Positions 4,129 to 15,834 of a stretch of DNA of 64,000 nucleotides are shown piece after piece. Origin of the DNA: Pseudacidovorax sp. NFM-22 (GTDB lineage: Bacteria; Pseudomonadota; Gammaproteobacteria; Burkholderiales; Burkholderiaceae_C). Each line of letters opens with the position of its first letter. Position 1 is the stretch's first letter. The notes beneath the pieces are model-generated. The model worked only from the letters and a program-made list of their open reading frames with translations. It was not told where the DNA came from and searched no databases. Position numbers and translations under genes: made by a program. The stretch spans positions 372,001-436,000 of the forward strand of contig NZ_JACBFY010000003.1 in assembly GCF_021401245.1 (NCBI RefSeq), given 5' to 3'.

Positions 4129-6705
4129 TCAGCTGGAGGGGCCGAAGCGGCGTCCCTGCCGCCGCTCGGGTGGGTAGTCGCCCTGCGCAAAGTCCTGGCT
4201 CTGCACGGGTCGGCTCATCGGCCCCACCTGCGCATGCAGCGCCGCATGCTCCTGCCAGGTGCCGGCGGTGCCGTGGCGGATGCCCTGGGCGCTCCACTCG
4301 GTGTAGCTGCCGCCGCCGATGACCACGACTTTCTTGCGCGCCTGGATGCGGATGCGTCCTTCGACGCTGGTGATGCGCACGTCCTTGTGCGCCAGCAGCA
4401 CCAGCTCGCCCTGGTGGGCCTGCACCTGGATGGGCCCGCGGCTGGCGATCCACTGCAGGCCGCCCTTGCGCACGAAGGTGCGCACGCCCTGGGCCGCTGC
4501 GGCCAGCCAGCGCTGCGCGGTGCTGATCGACAGGTGCTGGCCGGTGGTCACGGCGGTGTGCGTGCCGCTGTGCAGCTGGACGCTCTCGGGCGCGCTGGCC
4601 ACGATGCCCGCCGGGCTGGCCAGCACCAGGTGCGGGGCTTCGAGTGGATCGGGGCGCTTGCGCTCGCCGGTGTCGCCGGCGATCTGGTCGTTCTGCGTGC
4701 GCAGGGCCTTCTGGACATCGTCCTGGTCCTCGCCGGCCTGCTGGGCGCCGTGCACCTGTGCGGCCTCGGCCAGCGCATCGTGCTGCTCATGCGCGGCGCG
4801 CAGGCGCTGCACCGTCTCGTCCATGTCGCGCATCGCGCCCAGCGCTTCGGGCCGCCCCTCGGTGGAGATCAGCATCCCGTCCTGCGCCCGAAGCACGCCG
4901 TGCCCATCGGTGCGCAGTTCGAAGCCGTCGCCGCGCGCATCCTTGCGGCCCTGGTGGTCCTCGACGCGCGTGATCGCGCCCAGGCTCAGGCTGGAGTGCT
5001 GGTGATCGCTCTTCAGCTGCGCCTGGATCTGCCCGGCCGTGTCGTCCATCACCAGGTGGTTGCTGCGCCCGGCTGCGCTGTTGCCGCCGCCGTCGGTCAG
5101 CTCCCGGCTGCGAAAGCCGCTGAGCGCCGATTCCTGCGGCAACTGCCAGGGCGGCAGGTTCAGCTGGTTGTGCACCCGGCCTGTGCAGAGGGGCAGGTCC
5201 GGATCGCCGCCCAGGAAGTCCACGATCACCTCCTGCCCGATGCGCGGGAGGTGCACGCCGCCCAGCTGGTTGCCCGCCCATGGGCTGGAGACACGCACCC
5301 AGCAGCTGCTGTGCGGGTTCTCCTGGCCTTGCCGGTCCCAGGGGAACTGCACCTTGATGCGGCCGAGTTCGTCAGTCCACAGCTCCTGGCCCTCGGGGCC
5401 GACCACGCGTGCGGTCTGCGGGCCGTGGGTGTGGGGCTTGGTGCGGGTGAGCGCCGGGCGCAGCGGCTCGGTGATGGGGTGGGCCAGCAGGTCCACCTGC
5501 ACCTGCCAGCGTTGCTGCGCCTGGGGCCGGGCTAACGTCGCCCCCGCAGCCAGCGCCGCTTGGCTGTCCTGCCCGACGTCCTCAATGAGGAATTCAGTTT
5601 CCAGGATCAGGTATTCCGCATTGGCTGCCTCGCGCGGATGGCCCTGCAGCGTGAAGCTGAAGCCCGGCACCATGCCGCGCAGGTTGCCGCTGGCCCGTGC
5701 GCGGGCCCCGGCAGTGCGCAGCTGCTGCATGCGAAGCCGCGCAATCAGGTCGCCCTCGGCCCACGGGTCATTCGGGCCTGCGGTGCCGGCGCGCGGCTGG
5801 GCGTAGTGGGTGCCACCCAGGCTCGCGTGCCAGCTGTAGACCTCCGCCTCCGCAAAGCCGGTCGGGCGTGGATCGCTGCGGCTGACCGACACGTCGGCCC
5901 GGGGCCGGGTGTAGTCGTACTCGCGGCTGCTGTAGCGCCCGCTGGTGAGCCTGCTGGCGGGCATGAAGGCATGCAGGTACTCGGCATCGAGCTTCCAGCC
6001 GGGCGGGTGGTAGTCGACGGTGCGGTAGGCCTCGCTGGGGTTGGGGAGGAAGGCGCCCAGATGGTCCGAGAGCACCAGCCGGTGGGCGCCGGCGTCATGC
6101 TCGAAGTGGTAGCTGATGCCCCACTCCTGGCACAGCCGCTCGAAGAAGGCGAAGTCGCTTTCGTTGAACTGGGTCTGGTAGTCGCGCAGGGGGAAGGACT
6201 CGGCCAGGCGCTTGTCGACCGGGAAGGGATAGTTCGACAGCAGGGCGTCCAGGATGTCGACGACGGTGGCGTTCTGGAAGATGCGGCAATCCGCGTTCAG
6301 CGTGGCCAGATGCAGCCAGGGGCGCAGGACGAGGCGGTAGCGCAGGCGGCGGCCGTGCTCGCCCAGCAACTCTGCTTCGGTGATGAGGGCGTTGATCTGG
6401 CGGACGCCGGCGCCGATCCGATCGGAGGCGGCGCCGGTACCACCCGGCATGAAGGTGCCGGCGCCGTCGAGTTCGATCTCGCAGTGGATCTCGCGGCCGA
6501 TCAGTGCGTCCAGATCGATGTCGGCGCAGGCATCGGCCAGGGCCCCGGGGGCCAGCGCATCGGGGGTCTGCAGGATCAGCTCATAGGTGAAGAGGGCATT
6601 GACGCCCTCGTGGCCCGACAGCCGCACGGGCTGCAGCAAGGGCGTGCCGGCAAAGTCCGGCAGTGCGGGCGAATGCACCCGCAGCGTGTGTGACAGCGTA
6701 GCCAT
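4129..6705 (-). CDS. vgrG: Type VI secretion system tip protein VgrG with DUF2345 extension
   Basis: 858 residues. VgrG trimers form the spike on the Hcp tube and carry effectors. The first about 380 residues match the phage gpD/gp27-like base (for example FQNATVVDILDALL and RDYQTQFNESDFAFFERL). An OB-fold needle module follows (about 430-530) with the classic stretch DELGRIKVQFPWDR, WVRVSSPWAG and GVHLPRIGQEVIVDFLGGDP. The remainder is a DUF2345-type C-terminal needle extension. No PAAR gene is adjacent and no other T6SS structural gene is in the window, so this is an orphan vgrG island. The effector gene directly downstream is its likely cargo. Confidence 0.95.
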   Translation of the reverse strand: MATLSHTLRVHSPALPDFAGTPLLQPVRLSGHEGVNALFTYELILQTPDALAPGALADACADIDLDALIGREIHCEIELDGAGTFMPGGTGAASDRIGAGVRQINALITEAELLGEHGRRLRYRLVLRPWLHLATLNADCRIFQNATVVDILDALLSNYPFPVDKRLAESFPLRDYQTQFNESDFAFFERLCQEWGISYHFEHDAGAHRLVLSDHLGAFLPNPSEAYRTVDYHPPGWKLDAEYLHAFMPASRLTSGRYSSREYDYTRPRADVSVSRSDPRPTGFAEAEVYSWHASLGGTHYAQPRAGTAGPNDPWAEGDLIARLRMQQLRTAGARARASGNLRGMVPGFSFTLQGHPREAANAEYLILETEFLIEDVGQDSQAALAAGATLARPQAQQRWQVQVDLLAHPITEPLRPALTRTKPHTHGPQTARVVGPEGQELWTDELGRIKVQFPWDRQGQENPHSSCWVRVSSPWAGNQLGGVHLPRIGQEVIVDFLGGDPDLPLCTGRVHNQLNLPPWQLPQESALSGFRSRELTDGGGNSAAGRSNHLVMDDTAGQIQAQLKSDHQHSSLSLGAITRVEDHQGRKDARGDGFELRTDGHGVLRAQDGMLISTEGRPEALGAMRDMDETVQRLRAAHEQHDALAEAAQVHGAQQAGEDQDDVQKALRTQNDQIAGDTGERKRPDPLEAPHLVLASPAGIVASAPESVQLHSGTHTAVTTGQHLSISTAQRWLAAAAQGVRTFVRKGGLQWIASRGPIQVQAHQGELVLLAHKDVRITSVEGRIRIQARKKVVVIGGGSYTEWSAQGIRHGTAGTWQEHAALHAQVGPMSRPVQSQDFAQGDYPPERRQGRRFGPSS

Positions 6706-7603: not shown

Positions 7604-8374
7604 TCACGCCCATTTGGGCTTCTTGTAATTGGTAGCGCTCGATTCCTTGCTGGCTTGCTGCTGCTGTTGCTGCTGATAAATCTTGCGCAGCGATTCCTGC
7701 GTTTCTCCAAAAAGGGTGTCGTATTCGTCGGATTCCTCCAATTGAATCGAATCGCCGCTTCGGCGCAATTGGCCGCGCTGCTCCAGGTCGTTGATGACCT
7801 TGTTGACGACGCCGCGCGACAGGCCGGTGTACGACGCGATGAGCGCCTGGGAGATGCGCTTGCTGAAGGCCCGGGTGCCCTGCGGTGCGAGTTGCGTCAA
7901 TTCATGCAAGACCCGTGCCACCATCTTCTCGGCCGACAAGGTGCTGCGGCGGCGCAGCTGGCGCCGGAGCATGTTGGCGCGTTCGAGGCTGATGTCCACC
8001 AAAGCCATCGAGATCGAGGGGTACTGCGTACAAAGTCCGCGTACGATGTCCATGGGTAGCACGTAAACGGCCGAGGGCAGGGCGGCCACCAGGGTGAGTT
8101 CGGAGATGTTGGGGCGGTCGGCCTGTGCAAGGGGGCCGCTCAGGTAGATGTCGTTGACGCGCAGGAAGTTGGTGGTGATCAGTTCCGCGCGTTGAGTGGC
8201 GTCGGTGGGCAGGCCCACCCGCAGCAGCCCCGAGGCAACGCAGTACATCGAAAACGCAGGCTGGCCCGTAAGTAGAACTACGTCATTTTTGCGGTAGTGC
8301 CGGAGTTCCACGAACCGCATCAGCTGCTGGCGCACCCCTTGGGGCACTTCGGAAAGCAAAGGATGAATCAACAT
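7604..8374 (-). CDS. Crp/Fnr-family transcriptional regulator with glutamine-rich tail
   Basis: 256 residues. The N-terminal half fits a cyclic-nucleotide-binding beta-roll (LRHYRKNDVVLLTGQPAFSMYCVASGLLRV), joined by a long dimer helix (about 125-150) to a C-terminal winged helix (KRISQALIASYTGLSRGVVNKVINDLEQRG). The N-terminal [4Fe-4S] cysteines of FNR are absent, so it is not an oxygen sensor of that type; the ligand is unknown. The C-terminus carries a run of eight glutamines followed by a Lys/Ser-rich tail, which is unusual for the family. The small membrane protein downstream may be its target or partner. The actual FNR of this organism is encoded at 58347-59066. Confidence 0.85.
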   Translation of the reverse strand: MLIHPLLSEVPQGVRQQLMRFVELRHYRKNDVVLLTGQPAFSMYCVASGLLRVGLPTDATQRAELITTNFLRVNDIYLSGPLAQADRPNISELTLVAALPSAVYVLPMDIVRGLCTQYPSISMALVDISLERANMLRRQLRRRSTLSAEKMVARVLHELTQLAPQGTRAFSKRISQALIASYTGLSRGVVNKVINDLEQRGQLRRSGDSIQLEESDEYDTLFGETQESLRKIYQQQQQQQASKESSATNYKKPKWA

Positions 8375-8686: not shown

Positions 8687-8751
8687 CTTTGCGGGGTGGG
8701 GGCAGGCCGTTGGATGGCTTGCCAAGGGCGGCCGCGGCGGCCGGGATGAGC

Positions 8752-9444
8752 TCAGGTGCCGCCGACGGGCACCCAGCCCTCGGGCCCATGCGTGAAGGCC
8801 TGGCGCAGCTGCAGGCTGCCCGCGCCCTGCACCACGCGCGCCACCATCGGAAACACGCGCTGTGCATCGGCATCGGCGGCCCAGGGCGCGGGCTGCACGT
8901 GGTAGGTGTAGGTGACGACCACGGAGCCGCTATCGGCCGCGGGGTGCCCGGGCTCGGGCGCCCAGCCGACGACGCGGTCGAGCGTGAGGTGGGCGGCACA
9001 GAAGTCGGCCGGCGCCGCGGCGCCGGTGGCGGTCTTGCGGGCGATGAAGTACTTCTGGCCTTCGGACGTCAGGGTGTAGCGCGTGGCGGCGGTGGCGGGC
9101 GCCTCGGCCGTGGCGGGCAGGGCGATGTCTTCGGCCTGCACCAGGCCCAGGTGCTGCAGCACGGGCATCTGCACGGCGTCGCGCGCATGGGCCCGGGCGT
9201 CGGCCTGGGTCACGTCGATGGGCCAGTGGGTCTTGCCCAGGCACAGGTCGCCGTGGCGGGCCAGGTACAGCTCGGTGGCGGCATGCAGGGCGCCGGGGTC
9301 CACGGTGGCTTCGTGCTGGCAGCCGGCCAGCAGGGCGGCGGCGCAGAGCAGCGCAGTGGCAGCGGGCACGGCCAGGCGGGTGCGCGGGGCGACGGGGCCA
9401 GGGGCGGGAAGGGGCAGGGTGGTCGGGGTCATGGGGCGCGTCAT
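8752..9444 (-). CDS. Predicted lipoprotein of unknown function
   Basis: 230 residues. A proline-rich start is followed by a hydrophobic segment ending in the lipobox LLAGC, so it should be lipidated at that cysteine. The mature protein has two further cysteines (DLCLG and DFCAAH). No catalytic motif or family is recognised. The ATG overlaps the stop of the di-haem peroxidase gene by four bases (ATGA at 9441-9444), a translational coupling that fixes the start. It is the last gene of the operon phosphoesterase - di-haem peroxidase - lipoprotein, so it probably works with those two at the cell surface. Confidence 0.75.
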   Translation of the reverse strand: MTRPMTPTTLPLPAPGPVAPRTRLAVPAATALLCAAALLAGCQHEATVDPGALHAATELYLARHGDLCLGKTHWPIDVTQADARAHARDAVQMPVLQHLGLVQAEDIALPATAEAPATAATRYTLTSEGQKYFIARKTATGAAAPADFCAAHLTLDRVVGWAPEPGHPAADSGSVVVTYTYHVQPAPWAADADAQRVFPMVARVVQGAGSLQLRQAFTHGPEGWVPVGGT

Positions 9445-10877
9445 TGGGCGCAGTCTTCGGGCTTGAGTGGTTGGGCGGCCGTGGTGTCGGCGTCGTCCAG
9501 GGTGTGCAGGAAGCAGATCAGGTCATGGATGTCCTGCTCGGACATGGGCGGCTTGGCGCCGGGCTTGCGGCCGTCCATGGGCATCTGCGGGTCGATGTTG
9601 GGCAGGTAGGCGCTGGGCAGGTCGTCGAACTTCCGGACGGTGCCGCCGGTGTACTGGGTGGTGATGAGGCCGTAGGTCGGAAAGGCCGGGTCGTTCTTGG
9701 CCTTGGGCTGGCCGCCCACGATGGGGTACCACAGCTCGGGGTTGGTGTCGCGCGTGTTGTAGAAGCGGATGACCTGCTCCAGCGTGTGCATCACCCCGTT
9801 GTGGAAGAAGGCACTGCGCGTGGCCACGTTGCGCAGCGTGGGGGCCTTGAACATGCCGCAGAAGCTGTTGGCCGCCCCGGGGCTGGCGGGCTGGTGGTCG
9901 GTGCGCAGGGGTCCGCACACGCCCATGTCGTAGTACGTGGGGTCGGCATTGGCGGCGATGGCGGCATTGCGCGGCACGCCGATGGCCTCGTACGAGAAGT
10001 CGGTGAACAGGGCCGAGCTGCCGTTGAGCCCCGCGCCCTGGTAGTGGCACGAGGCGCAGTTGCCGGTGGCGGGGTCGGTGAAGACCTTCAGGCCCCGCAC
10101 TTCCGCGGGCGAGAGGTTGCCGCCCAGCTTGTTGCTGGCGTAGCGGTCGAACTTGCTGGTGTAGGGGTGAAAGCTGGTGTCTTCCAGCTGGTAGGCCTGC
10201 AGGGCCTGCACGGCGCTGGCGAAGGCGGTGTCGGGGTTGTCGAACACATGCGCGCCGAAGGCCTGGGTGATGAGCGGTGCATAGCTGGCGGCCTGCAGCT
10301 TGCGCACCACGTCGGCCGGGCTGGCGTTGGCCATTTCGGCGGCGTTGAGCAGGGGCACGCGGGCCTGGTCGGCCAGGGTGTCGGCGCGGCCGTCCCAGGT
10401 GAAGCCGCCGCCGGGGCCGGGGGCGCTGATGCCGTCGGGGTTGTCCAGCAGGTCGGCGTAGGCGGGGGTGAATTCCTTGTAGCGCAGCGAGGGCACGGCG
10501 CGGGTGCCAGGCTGGTCCAGCTTGGGGCCGCCCAGCTGCACGGCCAGGTCGTTGGCGGGGGCGTAGGCATGGGCCGGGTCGTGGCATGAGGCGCAGCTCA
10601 TCTGGCCCGAGCCCGACAGGGCCTTGTCGAAGAACATCTTCTGGCCCACCTGGGCGGCCAGGCTGAGCGGGCCGGAGGCCGGCGCGGGGGCAGCCGCAGG
10701 CGCCGCCACCGCAGGGGCGGGCGCTGCCGCGCCGCCGCCGGCGCCCAGCCCCAGCGGCAGGGCGCTGCCGCCCCCGCCGCTGCCGCCGCCGCAGCTGGCC
10801 AGGCCCACCGCCACGGCTGCCGCCGCCGCCACCGCCAGGAGCGTGGCGCCGGCCGCCGGAGCGATGGTCCGCCTCAT
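9441..10877 (-). CDS. Di-haem cytochrome c peroxidase/MauG-family lipoprotein
   Basis: 478 residues. The lipobox LASC (Cys29) predicts a lipid anchor, followed by a long Ala/Pro/Gly-rich linker. Two CxxCH haem sites are present, CASCH at 95-99 and a second near residue 275 (NCASCHY), the hallmark of bacterial di-haem peroxidases and MauG-like oxidases. The C-terminal half keeps family stretches such as FKAPTLRNVATRSAFFHNG and RFYNTRDTNPELW. Typical members reduce peroxide using an electron donor or oxidise a partner protein. Here it sits between a secreted phosphoesterase and a lipoprotein, with 4-base overlaps at both ends, which suggests it acts on, or with, the phosphoesterase rather than in general peroxide defence; that is inference. 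Confidence 0.88.
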   Translation of the reverse strand: MRRTIAPAAGATLLAVAAAAAVAVGLASCGGGSGGGGSALPLGLGAGGGAAAPAPAVAAPAAAPAPASGPLSLAAQVGQKMFFDKALSGSGQMSCASCHDPAHAYAPANDLAVQLGGPKLDQPGTRAVPSLRYKEFTPAYADLLDNPDGISAPGPGGGFTWDGRADTLADQARVPLLNAAEMANASPADVVRKLQAASYAPLITQAFGAHVFDNPDTAFASAVQALQAYQLEDTSFHPYTSKFDRYASNKLGGNLSPAEVRGLKVFTDPATGNCASCHYQGAGLNGSSALFTDFSYEAIGVPRNAAIAANADPTYYDMGVCGPLRTDHQPASPGAANSFCGMFKAPTLRNVATRSAFFHNGVMHTLEQVIRFYNTRDTNPELWYPIVGGQPKAKNDPAFPTYGLITTQYTGGTVRKFDDLPSAYLPNIDPQMPMDGRKPGAKPPMSEQDIHDLICFLHTLDDADTTAAQPLKPEDCAQ

Positions 10878-13255
10878 GGCTTGACGGCCCAGACGTTGGT
10901 CTGGTTGGCGTCGGGGCCGGTCTGCGCGGCCAGGGTTGCGTCGGCGGACTGCTTCTGCGTGTAGCCGGCGGGCGCCACGAAGGCGTGGTTGATGGGCCGC
11001 ACGCTGTCGAAGTGCGTGTCGGCGCTGCCGGCGTACTCGGGCAGGTTCAGGATGTTGGCGGCGATGAAGGCCTCGGTGTACTTGGAGCGGTTCATGTACG
11101 AGGCATCGTTGCCCGGGTCGGCCAGGCCGAACATGTCCTGCAGCGTGCGCACGAAGGCGAAGTGGCTGTAGGCGTCACTGTCGACCACGCCCTTGGGTGC
11201 GTTGGGCTGGTTGGTCAGGATGCCGAAGATGCTCTCGCCGTGGCCGCGGTTGCCCATCTGGTAGTTGTTGATGGTGGTGTCCTGCGACCAGCTGCCGTCC
11301 GCGTTCTGCTGCAGCGGGTTGGGCATGTTGGTGGTCTGCTTGACCTTCAGCGGGTTCCAGCCGCAGCACGAGTTGAAGCCGGCGGTGGCATTGCCCTCGT
11401 CGAACATCAGCACGATGGCGACGCGCTTGTTGGGGTTCTGCCAGAGCGGCGAGGCCTGGATCTTCTTGACGACGTAGTCCACGTAGTTGTCGCCGCGCGT
11501 GATGATGGGTGACACGGCGCTGGTGGCCACGTTGTTGGCCACGCTGCTGCAGTCGCTGGCCGATGCGGTGGTGCCGCCGCCGTTGGTGCCCTTGACCGTG
11601 ATGCCGTGCATGTCGTCGCACTGGTCGGGCATCAAAAAGTTGAGGTTGCCCACGTTGCCGCTGGCCAGGTCGGTGCCCAGCTGGTCGATGTCGTAGCCGG
11701 TGGGTGTGGCGTAGGCGCTGGCCTTGCCGAGTGCCGCATCCCACTGGCCGCCGCCCATGGTGCGGTTGCTGTACTTCCACTCGGGCGCGCTGCGCACGTT
11801 CTGGTAAGCCATGCCGGGGTGGTGCTTGGTCTTGTACAGGCCGGCGGGCATGGGCAACGTGAGCGTCGAGTCGCCGATGGTGCTGGTGTTGGGGCCCAGG
11901 GTGCCGGGCGGGTAGACATGGTCCTGCGCGGTGACGGCGGCGTCGGCCACGCTGTCGGTGCGGAAGTCCTGGCCCGGGTTCATCGACTCGCTGTAGGTGC
12001 GCCAGGTCATGCCGGCGGCGGTGATGGCGTTGAACAGGTTGGGCCGGCCCACGATGTTGTGGCTGACGGCGGCGGTCTGCGTGCAGGTGGTCTTGAAGGG
12101 CGAGCTGGCCAGGCCGGGCTGGGTGTTGTCGGGCACGGGCAGGTCCTGCACGGCGGTGGGGCCGGTGGCGTCGCAGTTCCACTGGCTGTCGTCGGTGATG
12201 CCGAAGTCGTCGGCGCCGCCCAGGGCGGTGTAGTTGGGCTCGCTGGGATTGCCGGTGGCGTAGTAGCTCACCAGCTGGTTGCCGGCCTGCAGGTAGGCGT
12301 TGATCTTGGGCGCGTAGGGCGAGTTGACGATCGACGAGGTCGCCTTGTTCTCCAGCATCACGATGAAGATGTTGTCGTAGCGCGGGATGCCCTCGACGTT
12401 GAAGGCGGCCTGCTGGGCCTGCGCAAAGGTGATGGGCTTGCGCGTGTCGGCCGTGTTGGCGGTCAGGGCGGTGACGCCGTTCTTGCCCGTCAGGCGCGGG
12501 TCGCCGCCGGGCACGGCCAGCGCGTCGGGGTACAGGTCGCCGCGGTCGAGCTTGGCGGTGGCGTAGACATAGCGGTTGTTCAGCGCATTGGCCTCGGCCA
12601 GCAGGGCGGCCTGGGCCTTGCCGCTGGCCTGGTTGAAGTCGCCCAGCACGGCGGTCTCGGCCACGCCCAGGCGGCTGGCGACGTTCTTGCGCTCGGTGGC
12701 ATAGCTGCTGCCGTTGGCGTCGATCAGGCGGGCCACCTCGGCCGACAGCGGGCTGATGACGACCTGCGCGGCCTGCTGGTCGCTGACCTGGCCGGCGCTG
12801 ATGCGCAGCGCCTCGCGGGTGGCCACGGCCTGGCCGGTGGCGGTGTTCTTGGCGCTGGTGCCAATGTCGGCCAGCAGGGCCGAGCCAGCGGGCACCGACA
12901 GGCTGAACTTGCCGCTGGCGTCGGTGGTGGTGGCGGTCTCGCCGTCGTCGCAGCGGCCGTTGTTGTTGCTGTCCACGCAGACCTTGGCGCCCGCGAAGTA
13001 GCCGGCCGAGAAGACCGGGTCGGTGGCGCTGCCGGACTTGAAGGCCGTGGCCGCGACCACGCCGTTCACGGCCACGGTGTTGGCCGTGCTGCCGGTCTGG
13101 CCGCCGTTGTTGCTGTTGCTGCCGCTGCTGGTCGATGCCGGCAGGAAGGCGATGCCGTCGTTGCCACCGCCGCCGCAGGCGGTCAGGGCCGCAGCGGCCA
13201 GCACGGTGAGGGCCGGGAGAAGAAGACGTGAAGTCGAAGGGGCGGTGGGTTTCAA
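10874..13255 (-). CDS. Lipoprotein phosphoesterase (acid phosphatase/phospholipase C-like)
   Basis: 793 residues. The signal peptide ends LTAC with Cys27 followed by a GGGG stretch, a lipoprotein signature. After a Ser/Asn/Gly linker, residues about 60-125 look like a carboxypeptidase-regulatory/SdrD-like beta domain with a calcium-loop-like DSNNNGRCDDGE. From about residue 295 the sequence matches the phosphoesterase family that includes acid phosphatases and phospholipase C: YDNIFIVMLENK, later VLMFDEGNATAGF and HGESIFGIL, giving the metal-binding Glu, Asp and His expected of this fold. Substrate cannot be deduced; a role in phosphate release from organic phosphate or phospholipid is likely. 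First gene of a coupled three-gene operon (ATGA overlap at 10874-10877). Confidence 0.85.
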   Translation of the reverse strand: MKPTAPSTSRLLLPALTVLAAAALTACGGGGNDGIAFLPASTSSGSNSNNGGQTGSTANTVAVNGVVAATAFKSGSATDPVFSAGYFAGAKVCVDSNNNGRCDDGETATTTDASGKFSLSVPAGSALLADIGTSAKNTATGQAVATREALRISAGQVSDQQAAQVVISPLSAEVARLIDANGSSYATERKNVASRLGVAETAVLGDFNQASGKAQAALLAEANALNNRYVYATAKLDRGDLYPDALAVPGGDPRLTGKNGVTALTANTADTRKPITFAQAQQAAFNVEGIPRYDNIFIVMLENKATSSIVNSPYAPKINAYLQAGNQLVSYYATGNPSEPNYTALGGADDFGITDDSQWNCDATGPTAVQDLPVPDNTQPGLASSPFKTTCTQTAAVSHNIVGRPNLFNAITAAGMTWRTYSESMNPGQDFRTDSVADAAVTAQDHVYPPGTLGPNTSTIGDSTLTLPMPAGLYKTKHHPGMAYQNVRSAPEWKYSNRTMGGGQWDAALGKASAYATPTGYDIDQLGTDLASGNVGNLNFLMPDQCDDMHGITVKGTNGGGTTASASDCSSVANNVATSAVSPIITRGDNYVDYVVKKIQASPLWQNPNKRVAIVLMFDEGNATAGFNSCCGWNPLKVKQTTNMPNPLQQNADGSWSQDTTINNYQMGNRGHGESIFGILTNQPNAPKGVVDSDAYSHFAFVRTLQDMFGLADPGNDASYMNRSKYTEAFIAANILNLPEYAGSADTHFDSVRPINHAFVAPAGYTQKQSADATLAAQTGPDANQTNVWAVKP

Positions 13256-13352: not shown

Positions 13353-13530
13353 CTGGCGCGTGCAGTGGCGGCATTTCGTGGCCGCGCGCGAATCCTTGTT
13401 TTTGCTTAAACCAAGCTGACCAAGGCTGGGAAATATTCAGGTGGACTTGTCACTTGAATGTAAAGACGCGTCCCGATCATTTCGCCTTTTTCCGGCGCGC
13501 TGCATTGCGCCGTTCCATCGAGGGTTCGAA

Positions 13531-15834
13531 ATGAGTGAATACCAAAATACGCGCATTCCCGCGACGTTGAATATCGACGAGCTCGCGCGCGTCAACGAGA
13601 TCCAGCGCCGGCGCCTGCTCCAGCTGATGCTGGCGGGCTCGGCCGTGGGCGTGTCGGGGGTGCTGGCGGGCTGTGGTGGCGATGGCAGCACGCTGTTGCC
13701 GGCGTCTTCTTCCTTGGGCGGTGGCAGTGCCGCAGCACCTGCGCCGGCCGCCGCACCGGCGCCCGCTGCCGCGCCGCAGACGCAACCCACGCAGGATGTG
13801 CCGACGTCGTCGTTTTCGGTGATGGTGCTGCCCGACACGCAGTTCTATTCGCGCTATGCGTCGCAAAAAATGGGCATGCTCTACCAGAAGCTCTATGCCG
13901 ATATCGATCCGCGCTACAACAATCCCTTCAAGGCGCAGACGCAATGGATCGCCAGCAATGCGCAGCAATTGAAGACCGCCTTCACCATGCATCTGGGTGA
14001 CGTGGTGGACCAATCCTGGTATTACTCGTCAGAAAAATCCGCGCCCTGGAGCGCCTCCACCGACCTGGTGGGCAATGGGCAGATTGCGGCCAATACGGTT
14101 CAAAAGGAATGGGAATTGGCCAGCCAGGCCATGCAGGTGCTGGAGCAGGCCAAATGCCCCTATTCCATCTGCGCCGGCAACCATGACGTGGGCGCCATCG
14201 GCTCCGACATGCAATGGGGCCCCGACTGGGGCGTGGGCGTGACCGGCTTCGACAACACCGACGGCTACCAGGACGGCGGCAGCCACCGCGTGAAGCTGTT
14301 CGAGCCCTACCTGCAGGTGTTTCCCACCGCGCGGGCTCAGCAGCAGTCCACCTTCGGCGGGCGGCATTCCTCCGGCTTTCACGAGTACCACGTGTTCCAG
14401 GCCGAGGGAAACCGCTTTTTGGTGCTCTCGATGTCGTGGCGCGCGTCCGACGACGCCATCGCCTGGGCCAATCAGGTGATCCAGAAGAACCCGACGCTGC
14501 CGGTCATCCTGATCAACCACCAGCTGATGGGCATCGGCCAGGACGGCGTGACCGCCGTCGACACGGCGTATTCCAACTACATGTGGGACAGGCTCATCAA
14601 GAACAACGACCAGATCTTCATGGCCGTGAACGGCCATTACCACGGCTCTTGCACCGTGACGAAGAAGAACGCCTTCGGCCATGACGTGTTCCTGATGGTG
14701 GTGGACTACCAGATGGCCTACATGGGCGGCAACGGCCTGATGCGCATGTACGAGTTCGACCTGACCCACAAGAAGATCGTGGCCAGCTCCTTCTCGCCGT
14801 GGGTGCCGGTCAAGCCGCAGGCCGAGCTGAACAACTTCGACTCGGCTTGGCTCACGGAGGCCAACCAGGGCTTCACCCTCGACATCGACTTCGCGGCGCG
14901 CTTCGGCGGCTTCAACCCCGGCTTTGTCGTGCCGGCCGGCACGCGCACCAAGGCCATCACGCAGCAGGCCAAGGAGACGATCCTCACCAACTTCAAGAGC
15001 CCCACCGTGGCCGCGAGCCGGCCGGCGTCGGGCCCCGACGACTATCCCAAGGTGGCCAACACGCTGGCGCACTGGCGCTTCTACAGCAGCACCGCGGCCG
15101 AGGGCGACAAGTTTCCGTACCAGAACGGCCAGCAGATCGCCGACGTGTCCCCCGCGGGCGCCAACCCCATCTCGGTCAACACCTGGATGGGCAAGGACGG
15201 CGACCTGGTCTGGTCCAAAAGCCACCACCCGCTGTCGGCCGCGCCGGGCAGCCTGCGCTTTCTGAATGCCACCGGCAGCCGGGCCTCGTACTTCACCACC
15301 GACAAGACCTCGAAGCTCAACACCGAGCAGTTCCTGAGCGGCTACACGGTCGAGGCCTTCGTCTACATCGACCCGGCCTTCGACGCCAACGTCAACGGCT
15401 GGATGGGCATCCTGTACCGGCTGGGCGCGCGTTCGCACCTGCAGGGCTTCGGCAGCGGCGAGGGCGACACCCCCATGATGTTCGCGCTGTCGAACCTGAT
15501 GGAGTTCCAGTGGGAGATCGTGCCCACCGACCAGGCGACCAACCTGACCTGCTGGTCGGGCAGCATCTCGGCGGGCCAGTGGCTGCACGTGGCCATCGTC
15601 AACGACCCGGCGGATGGCTACGCGACCACGATGTACGTGGAAGGTGCGCCGGTGCTGCGCAACAACAGCAACATGCACGGCATCCAGTACGTGGCCGCCC
15701 AGCAGCAGATGGCCATCGGCTGCGGCCAGTGGGCCGACGGCATGTCCACCGGCTTCCTCGGCAGCCTGGGCGAGATCCGCATCGTCGGCGCGCCCCTGCC
15801 ACCGAGCCAGTGGCTGACGGCGCGGGCGAGCTGA
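13531..15834 (+). CDS. Tat-exported metallophosphoesterase lipoprotein with C-terminal LamG-like domain
   Basis: 767 residues from the ATG at 13531. RRR at 26-28 before a hydrophobic stretch and lipobox LAGC (Cys48) predict a Tat-type signal and lipidation. A Pro/Ala linker leads into a calcineurin-like metallophosphoesterase core with its metal motifs in order: VLPDTQF, HLGDVVD, CAGNHDVG, ILINHQL and VNGHYHG. The last about 230 residues, including WRFYSS, LNTEQFLSGYTVEAFVYID and GEIRIVG, fit a LamG/concanavalin-like jelly roll used for binding sugars or surfaces. It is divergent from the phosphoesterase-peroxidase operon, and both sides encode surface-anchored phosphoesterases with similar Cys-Gly-Gly lipidation sites, suggesting a common phosphate-scavenging or surface-remodelling task. 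Confidence 0.85.
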   Translation: MSEYQNTRIPATLNIDELARVNEIQRRRLLQLMLAGSAVGVSGVLAGCGGDGSTLLPASSSLGGGSAAAPAPAAAPAPAAAPQTQPTQDVPTSSFSVMVLPDTQFYSRYASQKMGMLYQKLYADIDPRYNNPFKAQTQWIASNAQQLKTAFTMHLGDVVDQSWYYSSEKSAPWSASTDLVGNGQIAANTVQKEWELASQAMQVLEQAKCPYSICAGNHDVGAIGSDMQWGPDWGVGVTGFDNTDGYQDGGSHRVKLFEPYLQVFPTARAQQQSTFGGRHSSGFHEYHVFQAEGNRFLVLSMSWRASDDAIAWANQVIQKNPTLPVILINHQLMGIGQDGVTAVDTAYSNYMWDRLIKNNDQIFMAVNGHYHGSCTVTKKNAFGHDVFLMVVDYQMAYMGGNGLMRMYEFDLTHKKIVASSFSPWVPVKPQAELNNFDSAWLTEANQGFTLDIDFAARFGGFNPGFVVPAGTRTKAITQQAKETILTNFKSPTVAASRPASGPDDYPKVANTLAHWRFYSSTAAEGDKFPYQNGQQIADVSPAGANPISVNTWMGKDGDLVWSKSHHPLSAAPGSLRFLNATGSRASYFTTDKTSKLNTEQFLSGYTVEAFVYIDPAFDANVNGWMGILYRLGARSHLQGFGSGEGDTPMMFALSNLMEFQWEIVPTDQATNLTCWSGSISAGQWLHVAIVNDPADGYATTMYVEGAPVLRNNSNMHGIQYVAAQQQMAIGCGQWADGMSTGFLGSLGEIRIVGAPLPPSQWLTARAS

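Follow-up and report, generated by a model that had tools for sequence, protein, structure and literature searches.

Our analysis points to a three-protein envelope module in which a lipoprotein of no named family (LP3) would be a subunit of a peroxide-using di-haem protein (DH), the pair serving an exported phosphoesterase (PE). We hold this reading tentatively, at a probability of roughly 0.45: families, residues, gene order, co-occurrence, fusion and joint anchoring are read from sequence, and from them we infer the complex, the enzyme activities, and the service and its direction. New here are LP3 and the recurring PE-DH-LP3 trio, the fusion of DH to LP3, the all-or-none lipid anchoring, and phosphatase partners from two superfamilies beside related di-haem proteins. 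In the window, by which we mean the whole 64,000-nucleotide stretch of DNA analysed, the three genes form a minus-strand operon joined by two 4-base overlaps, as seen in the ORF list and the sequence. The features discussed are as follows.

13255..10874, minus strand: PE, exported lipidated PF04185 phosphoesterase, 793 aa (ORF, Pfam, lipobox)
11363..11368, minus strand: codons of the vicinal C630-C631 of PE, 10 residues past D619-E620 (sequence, alignment)
10874-10877, minus strand: ATGA overlap of PE stop and DH start (sequence)
10877..9441, minus strand: DH, MauG/BthA-type di-haem c peroxidase-like lipoprotein, 478 aa (ORF, Pfam, alignment, lipobox)
10581..10595, minus strand: first CXXCH of DH (CASCH, residues 95-99; sequence)
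10044..10058, minus strand: second CXXCH of DH (CASCH, residues 274-278; sequence)
9441-9444, minus strand: ATGA overlap of DH stop and LP3 start (sequence)
9444..8752, minus strand: LP3, lipoprotein of no named family, 230 aa (ORF, lipobox)
13447..13464, plus strand: weak, uncertain Pho-box-like repeat between PE and a divergent phosphoesterase gene (pattern search)
13531..15834, plus strand: that divergent gene, calcineurin-like phosphoesterase (sub-cut-off PF00149) plus Laminin_G_3, which looks exported (Pfam)

The original prediction had described three genes with 4-base overlaps encoding a phosphoesterase, a MauG/CCP-type di-haem protein and an unknown protein. ORFs, ATGA junctions and Pfam all agree, and the lipobox it placed on each protein was found (LTAC at C27 of PE, LASC at C29 of DH and LAGC at C42 of LP3). 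PE begins with a TTG codon, has an AAGAGG-like stretch a few bases upstream as read from the sequence, and belongs to PF04185, scoring 31.7 bits where the cut-off is 23; at E<=0.1 the only other Pfam match is a sub-cut-off one to CarboxypepD_reg, with none to PF00149, the family of phosA-type metallophosphatases. A PF03150 score of 132.5 bits (cut-off 25.6) and two CXXCH motifs place DH in the CCP/MauG di-haem superfamily. LP3 had no match in Pfam or NCBIfam at E<=0.1.

The search for the trio in other genomes that had been suggested as a check found it together outside the window's lineage: 20 fetched loci from several bacterial families carry PE, then DH, then LP3, all on the same strand. 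Hosts include Variovorax, Cupriavidus, Silvimonas and Solimonas, and finding this arrangement again in other families argues that the trio is not a product of chance. Scanning genome contigs with LP3 gave at least seven named loci (three Variovorax, Solimonas terrae, two Silvimonas and Cupriavidus agavae), and a plasmid record of Variovorax sp. PDNC026 contributed one more. In whole-genome searches at E<=1e-8, and with the own genome counted, LP3 turned up in 12 of the 299 genomes searched from the family and in 3 of the 369 from the class. Twenty of the 22 loci with an LP3 score of at least 100 hold the trio. At one of the other two, L133 (genome G790, about 8713-9788, minus strand), an intact LP3 stands beside a C-terminal DH remnant with PE missing, seemingly a decayed trio; at the second, L140, LP3 is alone. 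Weaker LP3 relatives have neither PE nor DH nearby (L141, L142 and L144) or a weak DH about 4 kb off (L143). Seen from the other end, a full-length trio-type PE (E<=1e-80) is present in 8 of the 299 genomes, and all eight have LP3 and a DH above 420 bits. The exceptions among the 299 are G790 with its LP3 and DH remnant, G708, G718 and G926 with LP3 only, and G814, which has a DH above 420 bits and no PE or LP3 hit; there the trio-like DH adjoins a PF04185-like protein of another subclass (44 bits to the PE profile), and the contig ends about 300 bases past DH. Variants within the set include a PE split over two frames (L110) and two tandem LP3 copies in four loci (L113, L136, L138 and L173). 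The DH of Solimonas, a gammaproteobacterium, groups with one from the window's family in the tree (99/90), which suggests horizontal transfer.

Within the trio, the closest link is that of LP3 with DH. The two are a single ORF in two genomes of two genera (L137, 4919-6748; L139, 4762-6447), an arrangement that points to joint function, and a start at -4 is available for LP3 in 10 of the 17 unfused loci. The corresponding start for DH, which gives the 4-base PE/DH overlap, is found in 3 of 19 loci, only in the window's genus, and we therefore rejected that overlap as an ancestral coupling. As far as lipobox patterns can tell, lipid anchoring of the trio is all-or-none: across 19 loci (L173 left out), a regular expression found boxes on all three proteins in 16, counting one of the two LP3 copies of L113, and on none of the three in L072, L137 and L139. 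These last form one clade (99/91), and their lipobox-free state may come from one event. Among 24 other PE-DH pairs the same expression found boxes on both proteins in 11, on PE only in 5, on DH only in 3 and on neither in 5, a count we do not rely on because LYGC, LYAC and LPAC boxes read by eye were missed; mixed states there would speak against joint anchoring as a general rule beyond the trio. The surface complex originally proposed thus stands as a co-located unit, well supported by the trio outside the lineage, the fusion and the anchoring, while physical association of the proteins is our interpretation.

The closest solved relatives of DH are 6nx0, which we take to be BthA, and 6v59 (E 2.4e-72), with MauG next. 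This assignment is consistent with 6v59 having Met at the position of Tyr463, a BthA variant named in the available text of PMC6405878. Aligned with the BthA chain, DH retains Q267, P271, E277, H449 and Y463, and the peroxide-site residues Q267, P271 and E277 and the haem ligand Tyr463 are kept in 19/19 trio DHs, as in the BthA class. The position of BthA Lys444 is Arg in DH and in all 19; according to the same text, Lys444 takes the place of calcium in BthA, and the K444R variant behaves like wild type (PMC6405878). The inter-haem Trp (W161 in DH) is present in 17 of the 19; the other two, L072 and L137, have Q there. In a 65-row tree, which left out L106, L133 and DH frames under 300 bits and took in L143 (summed over pieces), the trio DHs form one clade (100/100) separate from BthA, which groups with L066 and L062. 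Elsewhere in the tree, another DH clade (L073, L076 and L087) has two genes after DH, the first for a protein of about 430-480 aa and the second for one of 179 aa; in L073 the latter matches FMN_bind (PF04205) and the former, of 478 aa, has no Pfam match, and this gene set is possibly a different redox unit. L089 (7931-10672, plus strand) encodes a 913 aa protein with a di-haem domain in its C-terminal part and no Pfam match at E<=0.01 within its first 550 residues.

The pairing of a phosphatase with a haem peroxidase, which the original prediction took for non-standard, has a published precedent; what stands as new is the trio with LP3. In the available text of Rizzolo et al. 2019 (PMC6405878), bthA always lies downstream of a putative phosphatase gene, the two are both up in anaerobic growth (+5 and +14), BthA is proposed as a possible oxidant of its phosphatase, and BthA-like di-haem enzymes, on which much spectroscopy has been done, are described as having no known physiological role; since pairing and oxidation are both there, neither is claimed as new here. 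Our search of the available literature on di-haem peroxidases with phosphatases found nothing besides this paper. The gene upstream of L066, whose DH is nearest BthA in the tree, and that upstream of L062 encode PF00149 metallophosphatases, whereas the partners at eight other di-haem loci scanned are of PF04185, like the window's PE. Across the order, 44 DH places (E<=1e-60) in 32 of 300 genomes have as immediate neighbour a PF04185-type PE in 24, a PF00149 protein in 2 and neither in 18; of these 18, L075 has a PE about 3.3 kb away and some lie near contig ends. Twenty further DH places picked from the family list had PE adjacent in 5, 4.2 kb away in 1 and none in 14. With no adjacent phosphatase found at 18/44 and 14/20 places, DH relatives can evidently work without one. 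PF04185 proteins are uncommon in their own right: a search of 120 genomes from the order at E<=1e-10 gave 65 places, spread over 31 genomes, and the window's trio-type PE falls short of that threshold. By family assignment, then, the phosphatases next to related di-haem proteins come from two unrelated superfamilies, which speaks for a service of a more general kind to metal-dependent phosphatases. One more phosphatase close to a di-haem gene is the 5'-nucleotidase-like protein (PF02872 and PF00149) encoded at L103 (2769-4751, plus strand), not far from a divergent PE-DH pair of the window's genus.

In the module we propose, PE, exported and lipidated, would hydrolyse phosphate esters outside the inner membrane. 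DH, as a BthA-like protein, would react with H2O2 and store oxidising equivalents on its haems, and LP3 would be its accessory or docking subunit. With all three anchored in the same place, the DH-LP3 pair could clear peroxide from the metal-dependent active-site region of PE or set its redox state. We prefer such a service to maturation of a single residue mainly because the pairing recurs with unrelated phosphatase folds. A search for literature on redox inactivation of purple acid phosphatase found none.

The divergent gene beside PE scores 20.3 bits against PF00149 (cut-off 21.5) and, by phmmer, a like gene adjoins PE in 3 of 4 same-genus PE loci (L099, L100 and L102), the exception being L101, where the contig stops inside PE; phmmer found none at the remaining loci searched, and the gene is probably outside the trio. 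Also near the trio are a gene for VgrG, the type VI secretion tip, with a DUF2345 domain (window 4129-6705, minus strand) and, about 380 bases past the trio on the same strand, a CRP/FNR-like regulator gene (window 7604-8374, minus strand), which follows LP3 in L100 too. With up to one mismatch allowed, the Pho-box-like repeat at 13447-13464 is the sole match to that pattern in its genome; a better repeat can be seen by eye upstream of the pstS of that genome. Scanning with Pho-box weights reached p<=0.05 at 8 of the 19 trio loci, which are not independent, since several are near copies. We rejected a clear Pho regulon on these grounds; the signs of phosphate control are weak and no more than suggestive. 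Joint scavenging of phosphate and peroxide, the other option in the original prediction, is possible. Such a site, the shared operon and the joint anaerobic rise of BthA and its phosphatase (PMC6405878, available text) would all fit co-regulated yet independent lipoproteins, a phosphatase and a peroxidase made under the same stress without acting on each other. This is possible, though clearly less probable than the module, as the DH-LP3 fusion, the all-or-none anchoring and the re-pairing with unrelated phosphatases suggest more than shared timing.

PE looks catalytically able from its alignment. Its candidate catalytic residues E302, N303, S338, H478, H550, D619 and E620, whose roles we presume from AcpA, are kept in 18/18 trio PEs, and E302, N303, H550 and D619 also in 25/25 other PEs. 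A search of solved structures by sequence with PE led nowhere. The loop with C630-C631 is present in 15/15 trio PEs of one alignment, has counterparts in L059 (CC) and L079 (CPGC), both paired with DHs of another clade, and is absent from six PE relatives with no DH found nearby (L147-L149 and L201-L203, the last three checked over about 1.5 kb each side). Ancestry confounds this contrast between trio PEs and DH-less relatives, which counts against a redox switch. In 17 of the 25 other PEs paired with a DH, moreover, the PE alignment shows a gap in place of the loop; that alignment was built without L106 (the second of two like-protein loci, represented by L105), L133, whose DH is a remnant, and L110, whose PE is split over two frames. 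We rejected a dithiol target common to all DH-paired phosphatases. A parallel dithiol test in the divergent class also failed, with a CAC motif in 14 of 15 paired members yet also in 4 unpaired ones.

These observations weigh on the suggestion, part of the original prediction, that DH and H2O2 oxidise a residue of PE and thereby activate it, much as MauG acts on its substrate. The idea gains from the conservation of W633, W789 and C630-C631 in trio PEs, from the inter-haem Trp that DH has in common with MauG and BthA lacks, and from the proposal already made for BthA and its phosphatase (PMC6405878, available text). It is weakened to the point of being unlikely: partners from two unrelated superfamilies would have no homologous target residue in common, and the Cys-Cys loop is missing from most other DH-paired PEs, so that service is favoured over one-residue maturation. 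A bolder version of the service, in which peroxide-charged DH, docked through LP3, would toggle C630-C631 or metal valence so that peroxide switches phosphate scavenging at the surface, with each of two unrelated phosphatase folds having acquired the same kind of service on its own, strikes us as improbable.

In LP3, C68, C149 and W188 are invariant among 27 homologues. The structure predicted with these homologues has a mean pLDDT of 84.8, and 145 of its 230 residues reach 90 or more. Foldseek returned 0 matches at E<=0.001 for this model; the best structural match, NTF2-like, has a VIA-align Z of 7.2 over 85 residues (rmsd 3.6), and a Z under 8 may reflect mere common arrangement. The first half is winged-helix-like by eye, with weak Pfam hits to PadR and others that involve few members and come alongside unrelated ones such as Prp18. 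No fold match stands out in structure searches with the LP3 models, and a profile search of solved structures led nowhere. A further reading takes LP3 instead of PE as the protein on which DH acts, in the manner of MbnH/MbnP, and the phosphatase as a passenger. It would suit a small exported protein that adjoins or is fused with DH and has an invariant W188, but is the least probable reading, given that W188 is also present in LP3 relatives with no DH nearby (L140-L142 and L144) and so looks structural, that PE is as constant a member of the trio as DH, and that DH scores 105.6 bits against the curated MbnH cut-off of 362.85 (TIGR04039), on which we rejected an identification with MbnH.

The three-protein module has several implications. 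First, the trio gives a handle on the role of BthA-like di-haem enzymes through a constant third component, fused in some species. Second, it adds a partner phosphatase of a different superfamily from that beside the nearest BthA relative. Finally, Variovorax and Silvimonas are hosts in which the role of DH for the phosphatase could be tested.

Comparison with known systems places the trio near several of them. PE resembles AcpA/PlcH-type PF04185 phosphatases and phospholipases in passing the family cut-off and in its Glu-Asn, Ser and Asp-Glu signature, with roles presumed as above; it differs in the weakness of the match, an extra N-terminal domain, the Cys-Cys loop past Asp-Glu and the tie to DH and LP3. 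In the MbnH/MbnP pair a MauG-type di-haem protein is tied to a small exported protein, and DH is likewise of MauG type and tied to small exported LP3, but it falls far under the MbnH cut-off, and LP3 has no Pfam match at E<=0.1. MauG, which matures tryptophan tryptophylquinone, has two haems, a Tyr ligand and an inter-haem Trp at positions that align with those of DH; its calcium-site Thr/Pro are Arg/Ala in DH, and we rejected DH as a MauG since it scores 108.6 bits, far below the curated cut-off of 443.85 (TIGR03791). Closest is BthA/phosA of Burkholderia thailandensis (Rizzolo et al. 2019, PMC6405878), where, in the available text, which does not mention LP3, a di-haem protein of the same superfamily is encoded directly downstream of an exported phosphatase. 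The peroxide-site residues of BthA are kept in DH, whereas DH lies in another clade, has Trp161 where BthA has Ser257 and Arg in place of Lys444, and is partnered by a PF04185 protein where the nearest BthA relative has one of PF00149.
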